Positions 7,535 to 48,392 of a DNA stretch of 64,000 nucleotides are shown one piece after another. The stretch is from Caldinitratiruptor microaerophilus (GTDB taxonomy: Bacteria; Bacillota; Sulfobacillia; Symbiobacteriales; ZC4RG38), in NCBI RefSeq assembly GCF_025999835.1, contig NZ_AP025628.1:558001-622000 (forward strand). Direction: 5' to 3'. The notes below the pieces were generated by a model. The model searched no databases. It had not been told where the DNA came from and saw nothing but the letters and a program-made list of their open reading frames with translations. Every line of letters begins with the position of its first letter. The first letter of the stretch is position 1. The translations under genes and the position numbers were made by a program.

Positions 7535-7791
7535 TGACGGTGTTCCGCCGGGTGGCCCGACAGGCAATCGGTGCGCGTCGAGAGGCGAGGTTGTGTAGCA
7601 CCGATTGCCTGACCACCCCCGTCCGCCCCGCCGGGAGCGCCGGCCAGGGGCGTGAGGTCGACCGGAATCGATCCTTATGTCGACAACTCCGGGCCACCAA
7701 CTCTCCGACCGGGCCGTCATGTCAAGTGCAGTCCGCCGGTGAGGCAAGAAATGCGACTCTACGGTCCCGGTCAACTGTCACCGATTGCCTC
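7535..7791 (+). repeat. Structured intergenic element, copy 1 (E1)
   Basis: First of three related non-coding elements (others at 23224-23479 and 48145-48392). In order: block TGACGGTGTTCCG (7535-7547), preceded by GTTCTGCGG; a perfect 14-bp hairpin CAGGCAATCGGTGC (7561-7574) / GCACCGATTGCCTG (7598-7611), with flanking GGTGG/CCACC able to extend it; the loop carries GTTGTGT (7590-7596) near the 3' arm; GGTCGACC (7656-7663), exactly 10 nt, then CTTATGTCGA (7674-7683); and a 51-nt terminal block (7741-7791) bounded by GAGGCAA / TTGCCTC. The region looks clearly less GC-rich than the genes around it. No reading frame here is convincing. Function is unknown. Confidence 0.8.
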
Positions 7792-23223: not shown

Positions 23224-23479
23224 GAGTCAGCTAACGAGAGTCGAGTGCGACCGTAGAGTCACACTTTCTGACTCGCTGCCGGATACGAAGTTACATAACC
23301 CCACTGGCAGGGACGTGGTGATCCCACGAGGTCGACGTAAGACCTGTTCCGGGTCGACTCCTGGCCCTCTGCAACGACTCCGACGGCTTGTACGGTGGCA
23401 ATGAGTCAGTTCGTGGGACACAACGCCACCGCCCGACTCACACAAACTGACCCATGGACTGTCACTCGGAACACCGTCA
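23224..23479 (-). repeat. Structured intergenic element, copy 2 (E2)
   Basis: Read on the minus strand, with the same order and spacing as E1: TGACGGTGTTCCG beginning at 23479, preceded by GGGACGTCTGCGGTTCC; a hairpin GGGTCAGTTTGTG (23453-23441) / CACGAACTGACTC (23415-23403) whose two non-Watson-Crick pairs are both G-U when read as minus-strand RNA; GTTGTGT in the loop (23424-23418); AGTCGACC (23359-23352), exactly 10 nt, CTTACGTCGA (23341-23332); and a 51-nt terminal block (23274-23224) bounded by GAGTCAG / CTGACTC. It lies 67 nt upstream of the winged-helix/nuclease gene, same strand. Not coding by appearance. Confidence 0.8.
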
Positions 23480-48144: not shown

Positions 48145-48392
48145 TGACGGCGTTCTGCCATTTGGGTGATGAGACAATCGGTGTGGGGTCAAGCATCTGC
48201 GTTGTGTGGCACCGATTGTCTCACCACCCCTTCGCGCCGTCCGGCATGCCGGAACAGCAAGTCTCCGGTCGACCACAAACCGATGTTATGTCAAACCGAA
48301 ACCGCCCCGGACACCCGACCGGCCACCTGCTGGGGCCCGGTGAGGCAATCCGTGACACACAACCGGTTTCGTTGACTCGCACATCTTGACTC
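48145..48392 (+). repeat. Structured intergenic element, copy 3 (E3)
   Basis: Same plan as E1 and E2: TGACGGCGTTCTG (48145-48157), preceded by GGTTCCGCCC; hairpin GAGACAATCGGTG (48171-48183) / CACCGATTGTCTC (48210-48222), perfect over 13 bp and extendable by GGGTG/CACCC with one mismatch; GTTGTGT (48201-48207); GGTCGACC (48267-48274), exactly 10 nt, GTTATGTCAA (48285-48294); 51-nt terminal block (48342-48392) bounded by GAGGCAA / TTGACTC, one mismatch in seven. It lies 60 nt after the EIIC remnant and 171 nt before yhaO. The rest of the interval 48085-48563 holds no gene that I can support. Confidence 0.8.

Follow-up and report, generated by a model that had tools for sequence, protein, structure and literature searches.

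Dispersed palindrome-core-palindrome elements with helically phased spacing in Caldinitratiruptor microaerophilus

Introduction

Do three intergenic segments that differ in most of their letters, yet share one layout, act as RNA or as DNA? They lie in a 64,000-nt stretch of the chromosome of Caldinitratiruptor microaerophilus JCM16183 (AP025628, labelled G000 below; PMC9933637), at positions 558,001-622,000, analysed here in full and called the window. A preliminary description had read them as a new family of conserved architecture and fixed spacings, shaped by selection on RNA structure. The family, its architecture and its spacings held up in our analysis, but selection on RNA structure did not. 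The family is real, is best read at the level of DNA and has a layout conserved over two bacterial families.

Results

Three elements of one layout in the window

The three copies were confirmed as intergenic, at 7535-7791, 23224-23479 and 48145-48392. Their 5' block, TGACGGYGTTCYG, reads TGACGGTGTTCCG in copy 1 (7535-7547, plus strand) and copy 2 (23467-23479, minus strand) and TGACGGCGTTCTG in copy 3 (48145-48157, plus strand). Palindrome 1 (HP1) occupies 7561-7611 (plus strand, with arms of subfamily A, defined below), 23401-23455 (minus strand) and 48171-48222 (plus strand); as first described, its 5' arm ends 39 nt from the T of the 5' block in 3/3 copies and GTTGTGT precedes its 3' arm. 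The motif GTCGACC-N10-STTAYGTC was located at 7657-7681, 23334-23358 and 48268-48292, within the cores GTCGACCGGAATCGATCCTTATGTCGACA (7657-7685, plus strand), GTCGACCCGGAACAGGTCTTACGTCGAC (23331-23358, minus strand) and GTCGACCACAAACCGATGTTATGTCAAA (48268-48295, plus strand), and the window has three occurrences of the core pattern where shuffles predict 0.01. Copy 2 holds a second TTATGT, 42 bp beyond its core.

A second palindromic block (palindrome 2, HP2) ends each of the three copies, at 7741-7791 (plus strand), 23224-23274 (minus strand) and 48342-48392 (plus strand), and its arms and those of palindrome 1 are ~20-bp sites of one kind. Positions were taken from the first T of TTATGT (7675, 23340 and 48286 in copies 1 to 3) to the palindrome centre. 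Palindrome 1 is centred at -89 (7586), -88 (23428) and -89.5 (48196.5), and palindrome 2 at +91 (7766), +91 (23249) and +81 (48367), which places palindrome 2 of copy 3 one helical turn nearer the core than in copies 1 and 2.

A dispersed family with three arm subfamilies

The preliminary description had named a covariance-model search as a check on the family, and such searches did find additional copies in the genome: a model of hairpin 1 built from the three window copies (R1) added copies at E = 2e-8 to about 1e-3, and a second model built from subfamily B (R2) brought in many more. Copies were also sought by pattern searches. The chromosome carries at least 33, and 33 with readable cores were catalogued. 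The element is about 220-280 bp long and runs palindrome 1, core, palindrome 2; each palindrome spans ~50 bp and joins two inverted copies of a ~20-bp site at a fixed arm spacing. Among the 33 copies the arms fall into three subfamilies, with sequences of about GAGGCAAtcnGTGcgAgtCAA (A, n=11), CgAaACGCAaAacTTGAcAGGC (B, n=17) and TGTGCAcTaCAGGAACCGC (C, n=5), and palindromes 1 and 2 of one copy always come from the same subfamily.

The consensus core, GTttACCgaAAncnGgtgTTATGTCaACc (about GTCGACC-N10-STTATGTCRAC), has a strongly conserved right half and a degenerate left half, and STTATGTCNNC occurs 29 times in the genome versus 4 for the reversed control. The elements are AT-richer than their surroundings, as was first noticed, with about 48% GC in the core and about 57% in the palindromes against 71% in the genome (71.0% as published; PMC9933637). 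One subfamily C unit is duplicated in tandem (L305:515-832, G000 ~1,157,215-1,157,532; 160 bp, 88% matches), a recent event, and besides this duplicate no near-identical recent copies were found elsewhere in this genome. Our search of the literature on Symbiobacterium found no description of such a family, which is apparently new and undescribed within the searchable literature.

All 24 copies checked for context are intergenic: tandem genes flank 15 of them, convergent genes 5 and divergent genes 4, a tally that rests on ORF calls from a home-made codon model. Copies are present in both orientations, and 20 flanking proteins are mutually unrelated and ordinary, with no transposase among them. 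Downstream of some copies (L031, L060, L047) lie a TPP riboswitch, a T-box-like leader whose Rfam score falls short of the gathering threshold, and a tRNA gene. A CIRCE-like HrcA operator (CTAGCACTC...GAGTGCTAA) adjoins a subfamily A copy (L040) near G000:C1:1,787,000.

Palindromes sit on a helical lattice around the core

In the catalogued copies, palindrome 1 is centred solely at about -100, -89, -79 or -68 bp, and palindrome 2 solely at about +60, +70, +81 or +91.5 bp. Within a class, centres scatter by about 2 bp at most. A few weakly paired ones, for instance those of palindrome 1 in L028, L073, L040, L060 and L058 and of palindrome 2 in L030, were set by local optimisation near the expected place, and the measurements omit L041 for palindrome 1 and L305b for palindrome 2. 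The step from class to class is ~10.5 bp, one turn of B-DNA, and on either side of the core a period scan on class means has its maximum at 10.5 bp (R = 0.96 and 0.99). A Monte Carlo test on class means gave p about 2e-4 under a simple, crude null; shared descent within a class was handled by the class means alone, and shared ancestry lowers independence. The tandem duplicate in this genome obeys the same geometry: its period of 160 is exactly the distance from -100 to +60, with a palindrome in common.

The exact fixed spacing reported at the outset describes the blocks of the three window copies correctly, but across the family the copies differ by quantised steps of ~10.5 bp. Such steps are a signature of duplex DNA, and they put the palindromes on the same face of the helix relative to the TTATGTC core in all copies. 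Because the phase from palindrome to core is fixed and the intervening sequence is free, we infer a looped protein-DNA complex.

A sister family carries the core and lattice on unrelated arms

We ran R1 and R2 in 39-40 relatives, where G001 and G002 represent the family of Caldinitratiruptor and G003-G005 one genus of its sister family. Outside the Caldinitratiruptor genome the models gave weak matches alone. One weak R2 match, in G005, is an element with wholly different arms (GGGAACCGCAAGTTTTNCGCTT...) and the core TTATGTCAACC-N10-ATTATGTC, which reads as a 22-bp direct repeat, and a DNA search with this element region uncovered a multi-copy family in G005. Its palindrome 1 is centred at -100 and its palindrome 2 at +101.5 or +111.5, positions that extend the Caldinitratiruptor lattice by one and two turns. 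Some of these elements form tandem arrays of the form HP-core-HP-core-HP, with palindromes in common and a period of 201 or 212. Related elements occur within the same taxonomic order, and in G005 core and lattice recur on unrelated arms.

Downstream of pheT an element is present in G005 and absent from its congener G003, with conserved flanks in both. The intergenic region in G005 is longer by more than the element, so the comparison is one of presence and absence without a clean empty site, and neither a target-site duplication nor an exact empty site was obtained. Together with the spread of copies, this difference suggests non-autonomous mobility.

Related sequences turned up further afield. 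G003 carries tandem 75-bp palindromic units, CGCGCAAAATCTGAA...TTCAGGTTTTGCGCG, at L159:6606-7371 (G003:C1 ~676,605-677,370) and a second array of such units in L160 (~2,541 kb), both without the TTATGTC core; their palindromes look related to those of the family. In G010, from another family of the same class, TTATGTCRACC stands beside short hairpins (GGCATAAGTCGG...CCGACTTATGCC) at two sites (L164, L293), and this arrangement may represent a remoter form of the present kind of element. Direct repeats of the form TTATGTCRAC-N10..12-TTATGTCRAC occur in 47 genome contigs (L207-L253) against a chance estimate of about 6, many of them from Lachnospiraceae and Oscillospiraceae.

Arm pairing is explained mostly by a shared site

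A family of structured RNAs, or of cis-regulatory RNA elements, was the natural first reading. Copies 1 and 3 do fold below shuffles (z -2.8 and -3.3), but copy 2 does not stand out (z = -0.7). The compensatory changes first reported are real in the three window copies but weak in the larger set, where covariation, which had been expected to exceed controls, is at or near the shuffled level: in subfamily B, 163 of 500 shuffles reach the observed paired percentage and 71 of 500 the covariation score. When arms are exchanged between copies, subfamily A loses about 2 of 23 pairs (p = 0.02 and 0.04), a slight own-arm excess that would favour RNA, and subfamily B loses almost nothing (p = 0.19 and 0.15). 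Stems of single-strand RNA are expected to show more G-U pairs than A-C mismatches on the sense strand. Overall the stem mismatches are 108 G-T versus 104 A-C; subfamily A has the expected excess (57 versus 32), but subfamily B is biased the opposite way (44 versus 67). The small cost of swapping, and pair counts within the shuffled range in subfamily B, indicate that a single consensus site, matched by the two arms in opposite orientations, accounts for most of the pairing.

No Rfam family matched in the window, and among ten copies with flanks none matched above the gathering score; this agrees with the initial impression of an unrecognised class and also tells against RNA. The RNA reading further leaves the 10.5-bp quantised spacing unexplained and has to accommodate copies between convergent genes and in both orientations. 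We consider it highly improbable.

Discussion

Which kind of DNA element would place two palindromes in phase around a core? Several helically phased sites are typical of looped operators, as with AraC and LacI, and the copies could serve a single regulon as phased operators for a transcription factor that loops DNA. The genes beside the copies are unrelated, however, and several copies lie between two gene ends, which makes this reading very unlikely. The copies could also be classical MITEs, cut-down transposon ends moved in trans by a DDE or HUH transposase, with the phasing that of a transpososome. Dispersal between genes, arms that match within a copy in each subfamily, and presence or absence at the orthologous pheT site would all suit such elements. 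Against this, no terminal inverted repeat or duplication was recognised, the flanking proteins include no transposase, no consistent GTAG/GTGG foot occurs at the hairpins, and the conserved core in the middle of the element is left unexplained. The sole full-length IS21-like IstB locus (417,334-418,041) has no core sequence within about 2-3 kb, on which ground an IS21-derived MITE was rejected, and we regard the MITE reading in general as unlikely. IS21 ends (TGTYGACATAA) were likewise set aside for the 47 direct-repeat matches in genome contigs, where the flanking proteins examined were ordinary. A phage or plasmid origin was dismissed as well: blastn gave no match in phages or plasmids, and in viral contigs the arm sequences had no match and the core had ten, about chance level by a rough estimate.

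A different possibility is that the core is a site for a Xer-type tyrosine recombinase, dif-like, with the palindromes as phased accessory sites, as in cer/psi or phage attP; recombination between cores would then yield tandem arrays with one core per unit, and arrays of the form HP-core-HP-core-HP are indeed found in G005. A dif-like site consists of two ~11-bp half-sites around 6-8 bp. The right half of the core, STTATGTCRAC, is like the XerD half of dif; one actinobacterial dif in the literature ends in ATTATGTCAACT (PMC3364876). Left halves, for example GTTTACCGGAA or TTCTACCATAA, look like the other dif half, and in two cores (L107, L303) an almost perfect inverted repeat surrounds a centre of 6-8 bp. 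The likeness to dif, cer and psi thus extends to half-sites and to accessory sites at a fixed distance, but here, as far as the sequences tell, there are tens of copies in both orientations, a centre variable between 6 and 8 bp, and palindromes on both sides. The inverted look of the half-sites is also uneven, with the right half conserved and the left degenerate, and in G005 TTATGTCAACC-N10-ATTATGTC is a direct rather than an inverted repeat; since GTCGAC is its own reverse complement, the symmetry of the core is ambiguous. Up to 1.5 kb from the genome's seven tyrosine recombinase loci there is neither a core nor an arm, on which integrase adjacency was discarded, and a chromosome with more than 30 such sites active in both orientations should become scrambled. 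We therefore hold a Xer site to be improbable. A broader version, which we offer as speculation and think rather unlikely, would see order-wide chromosomal nucleoprotein sites with a dif-like core and phased accessory palindromes, the arms diverging together as co-evolving pairs of site and protein, for site-specific recombination or chromosome folding.

On balance we lean towards dispersed intergenic elements of double-stranded DNA, palindrome-core-palindrome, that nucleate a looped protein complex in the manner of a BIME and have spread as non-autonomous DNA. Support for the DNA-element reading comes from the catalogue of 33 copies with its three arm subfamilies, the lattice, its recurrence in G005, the tandem arrays and the presence or absence at pheT. 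One protein, or a pair, would bind the arm sites and another the core, and by analogy with BIME/RIP the phased spacing would let the arm- and core-bound proteins join in one looped complex. The elements probably spread as non-autonomous DNA, and they may have a role in local chromosome architecture. Neither a binding protein nor a mobilising enzyme turned up among the seven tyrosine recombinase loci, the IS21-like locus and the 20 flanking proteins.

Of the known systems BIME-1/RIP of enterobacteria comes closest, with an IHF site flanked by two REP palindromes. In BIME/RIP the core binds IHF and the array binds gyrase. Both kinds are dispersed and intergenic, with two palindromes around a core (here predicted to bind protein), tandem arrays that share palindromes, and several palindrome subfamilies in one genome, the last as described for BIMEs, which run palindrome, IHF site, palindrome and also form arrays (PMC2817692). 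The present family differs in its ~50-bp palindromes on a 10.5-bp lattice 60-112 bp from the core, in a TTATGTC core unlike the IHF consensus, and in having fewer copies. The GTAG/GTGG foot of REPs is neither consistent nor conserved at the hairpins. Since layout and dispersal agree and the foot does not, the element may be said to work like a BIME rather than to be one. GTAG/CGTC REPs and REPINs, thought to be non-autonomous (PMC3733652), are likewise short palindromic intergenic repeats, but ours have three modules over 220-280 bp and no consistent GTAG/GTGG or CGTC tag. The REP/BIME literature compared (PMC3733652, PMC2817692) makes no mention of Symbiobacterium.

In two families, and over many copies that have diverged, the DNA helix can be read from the spacing of these elements. 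Palindromic dispersed repeats are mostly taken as RNA hairpins or transposon debris, and the lattice offers unusually direct sequence evidence for such repeats acting as assembled DNA-protein complexes. Its geometry is precise and testable, and gives a route to the protein involved in a little-studied, deep-branching order.
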